Source: an uncultured Fimbriimonadaceae bacterium (GTDB lineage: Bacteria; Armatimonadota; Fimbriimonadia; Fimbriimonadales; Fimbriimonadaceae). Taken from it: 33,829 nt of DNA. The first letter of the stretch is position 1. Every line of letters begins with the position of its first letter. Of this stretch, positions 15,921-21,737 are shown piece by piece. Location: the NCBI GenBank assembly GCA_937961665.1, contig CALGMO010000109.1:1-33829 (forward strand), read 5' to 3'. A program made the position numbers and the translations under genes. Under the pieces are notes generated by a model. The model was not told the origin of the DNA. It did not search any database and saw nothing but the letters and a program-made list of their open reading frames with translations.

Positions 15921-17435
15921 ATGATCACCATGGGTAAGTTCAGCCGCAGGGAAGTCTTCGGGATCGGAGCGGCCGGTATCGCCGCCGCCTACCTGCCCAG
16001 CATCGCGCTGGGATCGTCCCAGGGAAGCCGGAAGCGCCCCCGCAACGTGATCTTCTGCGTGTCGGACGGCATGAGCGCGGGCGTGCCCTCCATGCTCGAT
16101 CAGCTCCTGGAGACGGTTCACGGCCGACCCTCCTTCTGGAAGAGGCTCGCCGGCAATCCCGAGGTCGTGCAAGGGGTTCAGGGAACCTGTTCGCTGAGCT
16201 CGCTCGTCACGGACTCGTCGGCCGCGAGCAGCGCTTGGGGCAGCGGGCGGAAGATCGTCAACGGCCAGGTGAACGTCTACCCGGACGGCACCCGCCTGAC
16301 GACGATCTACGAGGTTCTGCGGGACCGGGCGAAGCTGAGGACCGGTCTGGTCACCACGGCGACGATCACCCACGCGACGCCGGCCGGATTCGCGGTGTCG
16401 CACCCCTCCCGCGATGAGGAGGCCCAGATCGCGGAGAAGTACCTCGCCCTGGGCGTGGAGGTGCTTTTCGGCGGCGGGGACCGCTTCTTCGACCCCACCC
16501 AGAGGAAGGACGGAAGGGACCTCTATGCCGAGTTCGCGCGTGCCGGCTACGCGATCGCCAAGGATCGCTCGTCGATGAACGCGATCCGGCGCGGATCGAA
16601 GGCCCTCGGCATCTTCTCCAGCTCGCACGTGCCGTACGAGGTGGATCGGCTCCATCAGCCGCAGCTGCTGCGTTCTGTGCCGTCCCTCAAGGAGATGGCG
16701 CTGAAGGCGGTCGACCTGCTGCAGGACGCTCCGAACGGGTTCATCCTGCAGGTGGAGGGGGCCCGCATCGACCATGCGGCGCACGGCAACGACCCTGCCG
16801 GCATCGTCTACGACCAGTGGGCGTTCGACGAGGCCGCCGAGGCGATGGTCGCCTGGGCGCAGAAGCGCGGGGACACGCTGGTCGTGGTCACCACCGACCA
16901 CGGCAACGCGAACCCTGGACTCATAGGCGCCGGCGACGAGTACTTCGACAGCACCGCCGGCTTGGAGAAGCTGGCCGAGGCGAAGGCGTCCTTCACGACG
17001 CTCCTCCAGCTGGTCGGATCCCAGCCCTCCGCCTCCCAGCTCCAGGACGTGGTCCGCGATCGGCTGGGGATCGGCCTGAGCCCCGAGGAGGCGGCGTTCG
17101 TGGTCCGCGCGCTGGGTGGCCAGGGCGACCTGCGGCCGATCGACTTCTACAAGGGCGCCTCCGCGGCTCTGGCGATGGTCCTGGGGAACCACTACCACAT
17201 CGGCTGGTCGGGGCCATCGCACTCGAGCGACTGGACGCCGTTCCTCGCGATCGGACCTGGTTCGGCCGCGTTCGGAGGCTGGTTCGAGAACAGCTCGGTG
17301 TTCGACCGGATCCTGAGGCTCTACGGGGTTCGGTTCCAGAATCCGCCCCAGATGTCGCGCGAGGAGATGCTGCGGCACCTGCAGGGCAAGCGCCAGGCGC
17401 TGAGCAGGGCGGTCGCCGACCACTGGCTGGCCTGA
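15921..17435 (+). CDS. Tat-exported alkaline phosphatase (PhoA family)
   Basis: This metal-dependent phosphomonoesterase releases phosphate from organic esters outside the cytoplasm. The 504-residue precursor begins with a twin-arginine signal, SRREVFGIG, followed by a hydrophobic stretch, so it is exported folded. Active-site landmarks: Asp49 in VSDGMSAG, the nucleophile region VTDSSAASSAW (Asp98, Ser99), the ligands in ITHATPAGF, EGARIDHAAHGND, the TTDHGN pair and SHSSDWTP. All expected metal ligands are visible, so it should be active. Two in-frame ATGs, at 15921 and 15930, both keep the signal. No Shine-Dalgarno is evident at either. No Pho-box was identified, so phosphate control is only a guess. 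Confidence 0.93.
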   Translation: MITMGKFSRREVFGIGAAGIAAAYLPSIALGSSQGSRKRPRNVIFCVSDGMSAGVPSMLDQLLETVHGRPSFWKRLAGNPEVVQGVQGTCSLSSLVTDSSAASSAWGSGRKIVNGQVNVYPDGTRLTTIYEVLRDRAKLRTGLVTTATITHATPAGFAVSHPSRDEEAQIAEKYLALGVEVLFGGGDRFFDPTQRKDGRDLYAEFARAGYAIAKDRSSMNAIRRGSKALGIFSSSHVPYEVDRLHQPQLLRSVPSLKEMALKAVDLLQDAPNGFILQVEGARIDHAAHGNDPAGIVYDQWAFDEAAEAMVAWAQKRGDTLVVVTTDHGNANPGLIGAGDEYFDSTAGLEKLAEAKASFTTLLQLVGSQPSASQLQDVVRDRLGIGLSPEEAAFVVRALGGQGDLRPIDFYKGASAALAMVLGNHYHIGWSGPSHSSDWTPFLAIGPGSAAFGGWFENSSVFDRILRLYGVRFQNPPQMSREEMLRHLQGKRQALSRAVADHWLA

Positions 17436-17442
17436 GCCGAAA

Positions 17443-17464
17443 ACGACATAATAATGATTATCGG
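17443..17464. terminator. AT-rich imperfect hairpin between convergent genes
   Basis: The segment between the two stops is unusually AT-rich. ATAAT and ATTAT can pair around a four-base loop, extended by CG pairs with a bulge. Read on the minus strand it is followed by GTTTTC, a weak T-run. It may terminate the convergent transcripts, but the stem is weak. Confidence 0.3.
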
Positions 17465-17485
17465 AAAGTTCTGCGGATCGGCCGC

Positions 17486-17869
17486 TCAGAGCCAGCGGCC
17501 GGTCTCGCTCCGGAAGCGCTCGTAGCCCTCGCGGAGGATTCTCTCCCGATGGCGCTCCCATCGGAGCCGCGCCGATCGGAGGAGGTCCCGCAGACCTAGG
17601 CCCACTCCCCATCCGGCCGCGAACACGTACACGAGGTACAGGATGGTCCTCGCAGGCGTCCGAAGATCGTGGTCGAGGATCCAGCCGAAGAAGATCGCCA
17701 GTCCCCAGATCAGCACCGTCGGCAGGCACCCGAGCGCAAGCACCGCAGCGAGGGCGAACGGAATCAGGATCGGCAGGCCGGAAAGCACCTCCGAGGCGTA
17801 GAATCTCCGTCTCGGATCCTTGATCAGCAGGTTCAGGAGCGCCGCGGGGGTCAGGAACGAGCGCCTCAT
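17486..17869 (-). CDS. Small integral membrane protein of unknown function
   Basis: I do not recognise a family. The 127-residue product has a short soluble N terminus (FLTPAALLNLLIKDPRRRFY). Two or three hydrophobic helices follow (LPILIPFALAAVLALGCL, VLIWGLAIFFGWIL and TILYLVYVFAAGWGVGLGL). The C terminus is long, charged and helical (RSARLRWERHRERILREGYERF), and probably cytoplasmic. ATG 17869 is the first usable start; no ribosome site or close -10 is clear. It diverges from ffh, with 94 bases between starts, and converges on the phosphatase gene. Confidence 0.65.
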   Translation of the reverse strand: MRRSFLTPAALLNLLIKDPRRRFYASEVLSGLPILIPFALAAVLALGCLPTVLIWGLAIFFGWILDHDLRTPARTILYLVYVFAAGWGVGLGLRDLLRSARLRWERHRERILREGYERFRSETGRWL

Positions 17870-17948
17870 CGGGTCTGGGGCAGGCCGAAGCCGGGCAGCC
17901 TGCGCGCGAACCAGCTTACCTTCCCGAACCTGCGGGCCTGAGCGCCGG

Positions 17949-17954
17949 TACACT
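17949..17954 (+). promoter_or_regulatory. ffh: -10-like hexamer near the ffh start
   Basis: TACACT ends nine bases before ATG 17964. The intervening TCCACCGGG is too close to start to act as a normal leader, so the ffh operon would begin with a message carrying at most two or three untranslated bases. Confidence 0.4.
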
Positions 17955-17963
17955 TCCACCGGG

Positions 17964-19298
17964 ATGTTGGACAGTCTGACGCGACGGCTCTCTGGGATCA
18001 TGGCTGGGCTTCGCCGCAAAGGCAGGCTCTCCGAGAGCGACGTTGCCGAGATGCTCCGCGAGGTCCGCGTGGCGTTGCTGGAGGCCGACGTCAACTTCGA
18101 GGTCGCGAAGCGGTTCATCGCGCGCGTTCGCGAGAAGGCCGTCGGCGAGGACGTGTTCGGCAGCCTCACCGCCGACCAGACCGTCATCAAGATCGTTCGG
18201 GACGAGCTGACGGAGCTGCTGGGTGGCTCTTCCCCGTCGCGATTCCGGTGGGCCCCTTCCCCGCCGACCGTCGTGGTTCTTTGCGGCCTTCAGGGATCCG
18301 GCAAGACCACCACGGCCGCGAAGCTGGCAAAGTGGATGCTGTCGCAGGGCAAGAAGGCGATGCTGGCCGCCTGCGACATCCAGCGGGCGGCCGCGGTCCG
18401 ACAGCTGGAGGTTCTCGGCGAGTCCTTGGGCGTGCCGGTCCACACCGGGTCCGAGGGTCAAGATCCGGTGGCGATCGCCCGCTCCGCGCTGGACCGGTGC
18501 CGGCACCTGCTGCTGGACGTGCTGATCGTCGACACGGCTGGCCGACTCCAGGTGGACGAGGCGCTGATGCGGGAGCTGGAGGCGATCGTCCGCGCGACGC
18601 GACCCACGGAGGTCCTGCTGGTGGTCGACGCCACGACCGGCCAAGAGGCCGTCAACGTCGCCCGGGCCTTCCACGAGCGGGTCGAGCTGACCGGGGCGAT
18701 CTTCACGAAGCTCGACGGCGACGCCCGCGGCGGCGCGGTGCTGAGCGTGCGCGAGGCGACCGGCGTGCCGGTGCGGTTCATCGGCGTGGGCGAACAGACC
18801 TCCGCCCTGGAGCCGTTCTACGCCGACCGCATGGCTCAGCGCATCCTGGGCATGGGCGACATCCTCGGCATCATCGAGCGGGCCGAGCAGGCGATGGAAG
18901 CCGAGGACGTGGAGTCGCTGGAGTCCAAGCTCAAGGGCGGCTCCTTCGACTTCAACGACATGCTGCAGCAGTTCCGGATGGTCCGCAAGATGGGCCCGCT
19001 GCAGAACGTTCTCAAAATGATCCCGGGTCTCGGCGCGCAGATCCCCGAAGCGGAGCTGAACAAGGTGGACGACCGGCAGCTCAGCCGGATCGAGGCGATC
19101 ATCCTGAGCATGACCCCCGACGAGCGCGCGAATCCGGATATAATAAACGGCTCCCGCAGGAAGCGGGTGGCATCCGGATCGGGCACGAGCGTCGAAGAGG
19201 TCAACAACCTCGTGCGCCAGCTCTACGAGATGCGGCGGCAGATGAAGCAACTGGCCAAGCTGCAGAAGAGGCTGGGCAAGCGGGGTCGAAGACGCTGA
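17964..19298 (+). CDS. ffh: Signal recognition particle GTPase Ffh
   Basis: Ffh binds signal sequences and SRP RNA and delivers ribosomes to FtsY at the membrane. The 444-residue protein has an N domain (about 1-90, ALLEADVNFEVAKRF), a G domain with GLQGSGKTTTAAKLA, the DIQRAAAVRQL motif, DTAGRLQ and TKLDGDARGG, and an M domain with the RNA-binding SRRKRVASGSGTSVEEVN. The C-terminal methionine-rich tail is shorter and more basic than in many species, ending KRGRRR. ATG 17964 is chosen because the N domain starts there. Two adjacent ATA codons at 19140-19145 form TATAAT and may hide a promoter. It leads the rpsP-khpA-rimM-obgE-nadD-rsfS string. Confidence 0.97.
   Translation: MLDSLTRRLSGIMAGLRRKGRLSESDVAEMLREVRVALLEADVNFEVAKRFIARVREKAVGEDVFGSLTADQTVIKIVRDELTELLGGSSPSRFRWAPSPPTVVVLCGLQGSGKTTTAAKLAKWMLSQGKKAMLAACDIQRAAAVRQLEVLGESLGVPVHTGSEGQDPVAIARSALDRCRHLLLDVLIVDTAGRLQVDEALMRELEAIVRATRPTEVLLVVDATTGQEAVNVARAFHERVELTGAIFTKLDGDARGGAVLSVREATGVPVRFIGVGEQTSALEPFYADRMAQRILGMGDILGIIERAEQAMEAEDVESLESKLKGGSFDFNDMLQQFRMVRKMGPLQNVLKMIPGLGAQIPEAELNKVDDRQLSRIEAIILSMTPDERANPDIINGSRRKRVASGSGTSVEEVNNLVRQLYEMRRQMKQLAKLQKRLGKRGRRR
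19139..19144 (+). promoter_or_regulatory. Possible internal promoter in ffh ahead of rpsP
   Basis: TATAAT is a perfect -10 hexamer formed by the codons GAT-ATA-ATA inside ffh. ATA is likely rare in such GC-rich coding DNA, and two in a row is striking. It lies 184 bases before rpsP. No -35 is apparent. Confidence 0.35.
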
Positions 19299-19327
19299 CA
19301 GTTCACCCTAGGGAGACACAGAAAGAA

Positions 19328-19672
19328 GTGGTTAAGATCAGACTGAGGAGAATCGGAACCAAGGGTCGGCCGTTCTACCGCATCGTGGCCGCGGAGAGCT
19401 CGATGGGCCGCAACGGTCGCTTCATCGAGGTTCTCGGCTTCTACGATCCCGTGAGCCAGCCCAAGCGCGTCGAGGTGGATGCCGAGCGCGCGCTCCACTG
19501 GTTGCGCAACGGCGCGGAGCCGACCGAGACCGTCGGCTACATCCTGAACAAGCAGGGCGTGCTGGAGAGGTTCTTCGAGGAGCGCCCGGAGGCCCGGAAG
19601 CGGTATCGATACCTCGACAAGCGCACGCCGCTCACCGTGCCCTCCGCCTCGGGTCCTGAAAGCGGGTCATGA
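19328..19672 (+). CDS. rpsP: Ribosomal protein bS16
   Basis: bS16 is a small-subunit ribosomal protein needed for 30S assembly. The 114-residue product begins VVKIRLRRIGTKGRPFYRIV and contains the family core GRFIEVLGFYDP. Its C-terminal extension (about residues 80-114, ending SASGPESGS) is longer than in many species. The start is GTG 19328, 29 bases after the ffh stop, with AGGGAG about 12 bases upstream. A longer frame upstream is only the ffh shadow. Its stop overlaps the khpA ATG (ATGA). Confidence 0.95.
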   Translation: MVKIRLRRIGTKGRPFYRIVAAESSMGRNGRFIEVLGFYDPVSQPKRVEVDAERALHWLRNGAEPTETVGYILNKQGVLERFFEERPEARKRYRYLDKRTPLTVPSASGPESGS

Positions 19673-19908
19673 GCTACCGCCCCTTCGTCGAGCTGCTGGT
19701 GCGGCAGATCGTGGATGACCCGGAGTCCCTCCACATCCACGAGGAGGTCTCCGGCAACACCCGCACGTTTCACGTCAAGGTTGCCGAGGACGACGTCGGT
19801 CGGCTGATCGGGAAGAACGGCCGCGTCGTGTCGGCCGTCAGGGCCTTGGTGAGCGCCGTGGCCGCCAAGAACCGCGAGCGCGCCTTCGTCAAGGTCGAAG
19901 CGGCCTGA
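19669..19908 (+). CDS. khpA: KH-domain RNA-binding protein KhpA
   Basis: This small RNA-binding protein of the YlqC/KhpA family has 79 residues, the normal size. The KH signature is IGKNGRVVSAVRALVSA (about residues 48-64), with the GxxG loop as GKNG. KhpA pairs with KhpB in some bacteria and affects cell division and elongation. It starts with ATGA overlap to rpsP and lies 11 bases before rimM, the usual neighbourhood for this gene. Confidence 0.92.
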   Translation: MSYRPFVELLVRQIVDDPESLHIHEEVSGNTRTFHVKVAEDDVGRLIGKNGRVVSAVRALVSAVAAKNRERAFVKVEAA

Positions 19909-19919
19909 GCGGAACCCGC

Positions 19920-20462
19920 ATGGCCCGACGTTCCCGGTCCAACGGAGGAGACCGTACGCCCGAGGCGCGGGCCGCCGGCTACAGGCCTATCGGCACTTTG
20001 GCCGGGCCCTTCGGCATCCGGGGCCAAGCCAAGGTGGTTCCGCTCACCGAGTACGCGGAGAGGTTCTCCGTCGGCACCCGCGTCCGCATCGGCGATCTGC
20101 ACTCCGCGATCGAGGACGTGCAGGTGCACTCCGGGAAGCTGATCCTCAAGTTCGAGGGATTGGACACGCCGGAGTCGGTTCGCGACTTGGGCGGTGCGAC
20201 GGTGTACGGACTTGTACCGCCCAGGCCCGAGCTGGAAGAGGACGAGTATCTCGTTTCGGACCTGATCGGTTTGGAGGCGGTCACGCCCGACGGCCGCTCC
20301 CTTGGGACGGTGGAGGAGGTCCTGCCCTTCCCCGCGCACGACGTGCTGAGGATCGGCGAGCTTCTCGTGCCTGCGGTGAAGGCGTTCGTCCTTTCCGTCG
20401 ACCTTGGTAGCGGGCGAATCACGATCCGTCTTCTCGAGGGCATGGAGACCGAGGGTCCCTGA
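19920..20462 (+). CDS. rimM: Ribosome maturation factor RimM
   Basis: RimM helps process 16S rRNA and assemble the 30S head, and binds uS19. The 180-residue protein has a basic N-terminal extension of about 20 residues, then the RimM domain starting RPIGTLAGPFGIRGQAKV. It ends with a PRC-barrel domain (about 108-175) containing DLIGLEAVTPDGRSLG. The start has GGAA upstream. Its stop at 20460-20462 touches the obgE ATG. trmD and rplS, which normally follow rimM, are missing here. Confidence 0.94.
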   Translation: MARRSRSNGGDRTPEARAAGYRPIGTLAGPFGIRGQAKVVPLTEYAERFSVGTRVRIGDLHSAIEDVQVHSGKLILKFEGLDTPESVRDLGGATVYGLVPPRPELEEDEYLVSDLIGLEAVTPDGRSLGTVEEVLPFPAHDVLRIGELLVPAVKAFVLSVDLGSGRITIRLLEGMETEGP

Positions 20463-21737
20463 ATGTTCATCGACGAGGCCGAGGTCGAGTTCCGTAGCGG
20501 CAGGGGCGGCTCGGGCGCGGTGAGCTTCCACCGAGAGAAGCACGTTCCGCGGGGTGGGCCGAACGGCGCGGACGGGGGCCGGGGAGGCGACGTCATCCTG
20601 GTGGCCGACCGGGGCAAGCGAACTCTGTACGACTTCCGGCTTCAGCCGAAGTACGCGGCGGAGGACGGAGAGCACGCCTCGGGCAACAAGAAGGGCCGCA
20701 ACGGTCGCCATGTGATCGTCAAGGTTCCCGTTGGAACGGTGGTGACGGACCTCGAGACGGGCGAGACGCTGGGAGACCTCAAGGCGCACGGCCAGAGGTT
20801 CGTCGTGTGCAAGGGCGGGCGCGGAGGATTCGGCAACCTGCACTACGTCAGCAGCGTTCGCCAAGTGCCGAACTTCGCCGAGAAGGGGGCGCCGGGACAA
20901 CGGATTCGGGCCAAGCTCGAGCTCAAGCTGCTGGCCGACGTCGGTCTCATCGGCCTGCCCAACGCCGGCAAGAGCACCCTGATCTCCGCGATCAGCGCCG
21001 CTCGGCCGAAGATCGCGGACTATCCGTTCACCACGATCGTCCCCAACCTCGGGGTGGTGCGCCTGGACGACCGCACCTTTGTGGTGGCGGACCTGCCGGG
21101 CCTCATTCCGGGCGCGTCCGAGGGCAAGGGTCTCGGGCACAGGTTCCTCAAGCACGCCGAGCGATGCAAGGTTCTGGTGCACGTCGTGGACTGTCTGCCG
21201 ATGGACGGGTCCTCGCCCTTGGAGAACTTCGAGGCGATCGAGCAGGAGCTGGAGCGCTACGACCCCCGGCTGCACTCGAGGCCGAGGCTCGTGGCGGTCA
21301 ACAAGTCGGACCTTCTGCCGCCGGAGCAGTTCGAGGAGGTGCTCCGCTCTTTCCGGGAGCGTGGCCTGCGCGCGTTCGGAATCTCAGCGGCGGCCGGCCA
21401 AGGGCTGGAGCCCCTTCTCTACGCCATGGCGGAGCACGTGTTCGCCGAGACGGAGGAGGCCGAAGAGGAGGCGACGGTCGTCTTGGCTGGAGCGGGCCGA
21501 CGTCCCCAGGCCGGCTGGGATGTCGCCCAGGAAGAGGACGGCCTGTTCGTCGTGCGGGGTGCGGCCGTGGAGAGGATGGTCGCCATGACGGATTTGGAGA
21601 ACAGGGACGCCCTTCGGCACCTCCACCGCAGGCTCGAGAAGCTGGGAGTCATCGAGCGGCTCCGCGAGCTGGGCTGCTCCGAGGGCGACTCCGTGCAGAT
21701 CGGCGACTGGGAGTTCGCCTTTACGGACGAAGCATGA
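20463..21737 (+). CDS. obgE: Obg-family GTPase ObgE/CgtA
   Basis: Obg is an essential ribosome-associated GTPase acting in late 50S assembly and the stress response. The 424 residues show the three domains: the glycine-rich OBG domain (about 1-158, FIDEAEVEFRSGRGGSG), the G domain with GLPNAGKSTLI, DLPGLI, and NKSD motifs, and the C-terminal OCT domain (about 340-424). The ATG follows the rimM stop directly, with no gap, so translation is probably coupled. The stop overlaps the nadD start (ATGA). Confidence 0.97.
   Translation: MFIDEAEVEFRSGRGGSGAVSFHREKHVPRGGPNGADGGRGGDVILVADRGKRTLYDFRLQPKYAAEDGEHASGNKKGRNGRHVIVKVPVGTVVTDLETGETLGDLKAHGQRFVVCKGGRGGFGNLHYVSSVRQVPNFAEKGAPGQRIRAKLELKLLADVGLIGLPNAGKSTLISAISAARPKIADYPFTTIVPNLGVVRLDDRTFVVADLPGLIPGASEGKGLGHRFLKHAERCKVLVHVVDCLPMDGSSPLENFEAIEQELERYDPRLHSRPRLVAVNKSDLLPPEQFEEVLRSFRERGLRAFGISAAAGQGLEPLLYAMAEHVFAETEEAEEEATVVLAGAGRRPQAGWDVAQEEDGLFVVRGAAVERMVAMTDLENRDALRHLHRRLEKLGVIERLRELGCSEGDSVQIGDWEFAFTDEA

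Follow-up and report, generated by a model that had tools for sequence, protein, structure and literature searches.

A predicted -10 element held in rare ffh codons ahead of rpsP in a lineage of Fimbriimonadales

The window analyzed here is a stretch of 33,829 nucleotides (nt) that comprises a whole contig (C109) of a Fimbriimonadales (Armatimonadota) genome of 2.88 megabases (Mb) in 142 contigs. By Ffh sequence, the nearest named relatives are Armatimonadetes isolate UBA8783 (96%) and Fimbriimonadales isolate SKW193 (89%). The element in question is a TATAAT hexamer that lies within ffh, the gene for the signal recognition particle protein, and very likely belongs to an internal promoter of rpsP and the genes behind it. 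The start codon of ffh (TTG at 17967) was picked by homology, and codon numbers are counted from there. The locus is organized as follows.

17967..19298, + strand: ffh (signal recognition particle protein), which carries the element (TIGR00959, 572.8 bits, cut-off 473.2; 81-genome family alignment)
19134..19144, + strand: CCGGATATAAT, conserved block, codons P390-D391-I392-I393, single copy in the window's genome
19139..19144, + strand: TATAAT, proposed -10 element (TATA[AC]T occupies this position in 59 of 81 genomes of the family and in 7 of 7 fetched genomes of the sister family f2)
19150..19151, + strand: predicted transcription start, placed by the usual distance between a -10 element and the start
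19151..19327, + strand: predicted 5' leader (approximately 177 nt) of the proposed internal mRNA, taken up largely by the last part of ffh
19299..19327, + strand: ffh-rpsP gap, 29 nt, without a + strand terminator-like site or TATA[ACG]T
19328..19672, + strand: rpsP (S16), GTG start, proposed first gene of the internal transcript (TIGR00002, 102.4 bits)
19669..19908, + strand: gene for a KH-domain RNA-binding protein, overlapping the rpsP stop (matches to KH families stay under their cut-offs, the best at 57.2 bits)
19920..20462, + strand: rimM (TIGR02273, 113.5 bits)
20463..21737, + strand: obgE (NF008955, 521.8 bits)

An earlier, sequence-only reading of this DNA held that two adjacent ATA codons in ffh create an exact -10 hexamer selected as an internal promoter. 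The letters are as described: GAT ATA ATA AAC at 19137-19148 is in frame and encodes D-I-I-N (codons 391-394), and the complete hexamer (6/6) falls within GAT-ATA-ATA, on the same strand as rpsP. The accompanying expectation that ATA is rare and isoleucine mostly encoded by ATC was borne out in 634 open reading frames (ORFs) from 0.92 Mb of the window's genome, called by our own script rather than by a gene finder: ATA accounts for 81 of the 9,363 Ile codons (0.87%) and ATC for 93.9%. In the same sample, GAT makes up 15.7% of the Asp codons, ATA-ATA is used for 2 of the 240 Ile-Ile pairs, and GAT-ATA occurs once among 58 D-I-[I/L] tripeptides; counting TATA[AC]T in the ORFs indicates that this single occurrence is the ffh site itself.

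A codon alignment was obtained for 81 of the 85 genomes of the family (f1), some of its rows being near-copies of each other; from G016, G028, G039 and G054, no ffh was obtained at the site. Despite synonymous freedom, 59 of these 81 genomes, representing 24 genera, retain TATA[AC]T. ATA is found in 59 of the 72 Ile codons at column 392, compared with 74 of 1,956 pooled over all other Ile columns, and 17 of those 74 sit at the next column, 393. When 344 columns are ranked by codon bias relative to each gene's own usage, ATA392 comes first (genus-weighted z 21.2) and GAT391 second (9.5), with 6.7 for the third-ranked column; that the two codons writing GATATA are the most biased in ffh supports the proposed selection for an internal promoter. 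Asp391 is encoded by GAT in 66 of 76 cases, and codon 390 is CCG in 57 of the 81 genomes. GAT-ATA is found at none of the 17 other D-I-[IL] places in ffh, and none of the 59 carriers has a second TATA[AC]T within the final 400 nt of the gene. Among carriers, the median codon identity between genera at columns with the same residue is 0.43; the identity of 1.0 at columns 391-392 is conditioned on carrier status and is not counted as evidence.

The codon that follows is constrained differently. Position 393 retains AT or CT while its third letter drifts: ATA occurs in 17 of 52 Ile codons (more than the 3.8 expected), the remainder being ATC or ATT, and other genomes have Leu. As inferred from the residue at codon 393, 42 carriers with Ile have TATAAT and 17 with Leu (CTN) have TATACT. 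Since conservation does not extend to the second ATA, what is constrained is GATATA[A/C]T rather than a pair of ATA codons, so that the sequence-only reading was right about the first ATA and not about the second; likewise, its statement that ATC-ATC would destroy the hexamer has to be narrowed, given that TATAAT would survive a change to ATC at codon 393 only. A 17-nt pattern derived from the site occurs once each in 61 of the 113 genomes of the class (27 of 47 genera), and its reversed version has no match; among the 61, the copy in G024 lies in the ffh-rpsP gap instead of ffh, and three genomes belong to f2. The exact 11-mer is present in 50 of the 85 family genomes, several copies being outside ffh, and was not used as a count of sites. 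Codon choice across the alignment demonstrates a constraint at the DNA level, on the letters of the -10 word, beyond what the protein requires.

Carriage of the word follows the position of rpsP, the starts of which were extrapolated from alignments in the relatives. In all 59 carriers, the distance from ffh to the following rpsP is 4-63 nt; in the 22 non-carriers, rpsP either follows a gap of 74-235 nt (17 genomes) or is located elsewhere in the genome (5 genomes). On a tree of Ffh minus codons 388-399 (of the 'quick' type, with 22 of 78 inner branches open), word and gap change 11 times each and agree in 81 of 81 rows; in the supported independent pairs, both traits change together in 7 of 7 (sign test p 0.016). 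Loss of the codons with no substitute promoter nearby, the outcome that the sequence-only reading had named as contrary to its proposal, is mostly not what is seen, because rpsP is elsewhere in 5 of the 22 non-carriers and a long gap bearing a word is present in 14. These 14 of the 17 long gaps contain TATAAT (12) or TATAGT (2), compared with 1.9 expected and a maximum of 4 in 300 shuffles. Where rpsP is elsewhere, TATA[ACG]T is found in the last 150 nt before the gene in 3 of 5 family genomes (G067, G055 and G082), and in family f3 all 5 genomes of this kind have TATAAT 37-45 nt before rpsP. By this comparison, presence of the element depends on a downstream rpsP and on its distance.

Two of the genomes with a displaced rpsP deserve a separate description. 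In G067 (L267), GGATATAATAAACGGC, found 58 nt before an rpsP that does not adjoin ffh, has the same 16 letters as the ffh of the window. In G056 (L269), rpsP is on the opposite strand near the ffh start (C2:268709-269029, + strand, and ffh at 266898-268232, - strand).

Outside the family, 7 of 8 genomes of f2, 7 of 18 of f3, the single genome of f4 and none of the one genome of f5 were fetched. All 7 genomes of f2 have GAT-ATA-CTN (TATACT) and gaps of 14-31 nt. A phylum-wide rule was considered and rejected, given that TATA[AC]T is absent from the site in 24 of the 25 fetched ffh genes outside the class, in 7 of 7 from f3 and in the one from f4; the single ffh outside the class that has the word, in G173 (f21), is followed by a 77-nt gap that also holds TATAAT. 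As far as these comparisons reach, the promoter rule in ffh codons is a trait of one lineage (f1 and f2) and fails outside it.

In the window's genome at large, TATAAT is found in 53 copies, compared with 3 of the reversed word TAATAT, which has the same dinucleotides. The window itself has two (0.35 expected; two are reached in 5 of 100 shuffles), the second being at 510-515 on the - strand. An ATG is located 4-12 nt downstream in 12 of 52 TATAAT sites with full context and in 358 of 4,880 random places; for ATG or GTG, the numbers are 22 of 52 and 938 of 4,880, with the -35 mostly absent. Judging by this enrichment and by the excess over the reversed word, TATAAT behaves like a promoter word, and transcripts with a short leader or none may be frequent in this genome.

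Given the codon-level constraint and the dependence on rpsP, GATATAAT in ffh codons 391-393 is, with high probability, the -10 of a vegetative internal promoter for rpsP-KH-rimM-obgE. A polymerase with a factor presumably of the sigma-70/sigma-A type would start about 180 nt before rpsP, and this internal start would supply the messenger RNA for rpsP-KH-rimM-obgE on top of read-through from ffh. Scanning 17400-21200 revealed neither a terminator-like site on the + strand nor a promoter-like site; given the lack of such a terminator, read-through from ffh probably adds to rpsP expression. The promoter would provide extra, ffh-independent expression of ribosomal genes, thereby uncoupling them from ffh as the sequence-only reading envisaged, and selection would retain the rare ATA and the minor codon GAT at D-I-(I/L). 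Such a promoter costs only codon choice because D-I-(I/L) already supplies every letter of TATA(A/C)T except the synonymous ones.

Several observations weigh against this interpretation. There is no -35 (TTGACA, 16-18 nt upstream), the best match being 3/6. The boundary that separates short from long gaps (63/74 nt) was taken from the observed gaps and then fixed at 70 for the tree test. Three of the 17 long gaps (in G006 and in the AT-rich G062 and G063) lack TATA[ACG]T and thus any substitute word, as do the 150 nt before rpsP in G012 and G056, in which rpsP is elsewhere. The word is also absent from all 59 short gaps, which carries little weight since 0.07 occurrences are expected. Beyond the lineage, gaps of 23-46 nt come without the word in G109 (f3), G144, G146, G153 and G230, and G111 of f4 has GATACT with a 19-nt gap.

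The lack of a clear -35 is nevertheless typical of this genome, in which 48 of the 52 TATAATs have fewer than 5 matches to TTGACA and 4 have 5 or 6. Matches to the full sigma-70 pattern are present as well (at 10 places with at most 2 mismatches, compared with 1 for the reversed pattern). A mild preference for AAA at codon 385 (-32 to -30) was considered as a -35 and rejected, as it does not make TTGACA. The TGn of an extended -10 is absent, GGA preceding TATAAT; at position -15, 91% of carriers (genus-weighted) have G and the others A or T.

The distance between the -10 and rpsP in carriers, 161-226 nt, implies a leader of approximately 150-215 nt, and many TATAATs elsewhere in the genome are instead located close before start codons. 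Both facts would fit a genuine promoter whose main product is not rpsP mRNA but a short transcript of the last part of ffh or a truncated piece of Ffh. Nevertheless, this alternative is very unlikely, given that carriage tracks whether rpsP is present and how far from ffh it lies. A structured leader was also rejected: folding of 19150-19345 is ordinary (z -0.63, one sequence), and Rfam at gathering thresholds has no match there, the window containing two transfer RNAs by the same search. Furthermore, no conserved start codon was noticed just past the word, although no search was aimed at small ORFs. Another possibility is that the rare ATA is kept for translation, as a slow codon at which the ribosome pauses while the M domain of Ffh folds or meets its RNA; the rarity of ATA in this genome and the position of the site beside the M-domain motif G-S-R-R are compatible with such a role. 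This explanation is highly improbable: the preceding GAT is constrained as well, the following codon keeps AT or CT with a drifting third letter, and the rare codon is abandoned exactly when the gap is long or rpsP has departed, a dependence that disfavors pausing because pausing on Ffh should be independent of the next gene. Codon inertia, with functionless letters inherited by descent or chance, has next to no probability even though the carriers are related and the word is clustered on the tree (11 changes compared with 19.4 in shuffles), since other Ile columns hold no such state, codon identity between carrier genera is otherwise low, and the losses coincide with long gaps or a missing rpsP.

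The promoter might, in addition, lock a piece of the housekeeping protein Ffh, the lock being escaped by copying; this proposal is tentative and somewhat less probable than its opposite. Carriers are invariant at D391, I392 and G395; the 22 non-carriers have E, A or Q at 391 in 5 cases, L, V or S at 392 in 9, and S or A at 395 in 6. Invariance of D391 and I392 nearly follows from the definition of carriers, and G395 is outside the word. At G395, which is the glycine in the G-S-R-R motif, 5 of the 22 non-carriers (G009, G012, G015, G040 and G062) have Ser and none of the 59 carriers does.

With regard to copying, the ffh-rpsP gap of G024 (L144; contig C85, approximately 81925-81970) contains a stretch identical in 39 of 50 positions to the ffh of G023 around the element and in 34 of 50 to the ffh of G024 itself, which reads GAC-ATC-ATC. 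From these alignments, a segment including the promoter was apparently duplicated to a place beside rpsP in G024, the original ffh then being freed. An origin of all substitute promoters from the ffh segment was rejected as a general rule, with clear copying in G024 only. When scored as copied segments, G009, G058 and G067 rank above the contexts of the other 51 TATAATs in the window's genome and G015 does not, the null being imperfect as it consists of another genome's promoters; G105 (f3), where no descent from the ffh segment is expected, scores equally high.

Internal promoters are already known and are common as a kind. Both trp and rpsU-dnaG-rpoD have them, the dnaG promoter being located in the upstream coding sequence. 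To our knowledge, no order-wide tie to gap length has been described for the internal promoters of his, trp or rpsU-dnaG-rpoD; these were established experimentally in few species, unlike the ffh site, which is proposed from genome comparison. In the his operon of Escherichia coli and Salmonella, internal promoters add transcription of distal genes (PMC10138114). For Campylobacter and Helicobacter, intragenic sigma-70 promoters are described, some of which (in cj0705 and cj0099) have a predicted -10 that goes with the presence of the gene downstream, and internal promoters in Epsilonproteobacteria are reported to show little positional conservation (PMC3847290). The ffh element resembles these in its location inside a coding sequence and its tie to the downstream gene, and differs in that the word is kept over 24 genera and the sister family, with codon choice held, and in that the start is only predicted. 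In Bacillus subtilis, a start between ffh and rpsP is reported (PMC10100781); the likeness consists in a separate start for rpsP and the following genes in the same gene order, and the difference in that this start is intergenic instead of within ffh codons, resembling the genomes with long gaps. In the window (19328-21737), obgE directly follows rimM, and trmD and rplS, which come after rimM in B. subtilis, are not between them. A literature search of titles and abstract beginnings, with subscription journals thinly covered, yielded no report of an rpsP promoter inside ffh and no promoter map for Armatimonadota. The depth of conservation, the lock on codons and the way carriage depends on gap length look new.

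The comparison suggests a genome-only route to working internal promoters, namely through rare synonymous codons that are held only while the next gene is close, and the approximately 11 natural switches reveal when the constraint lifts. The site presents an unusually clean case of a dual code, in which a protein motif and a proposed promoter share letters in 24 genera and a sister family. If the tentatively proposed lock on Ffh is real, transcription signals would shape this protein beside its RNA-binding motif across a family.
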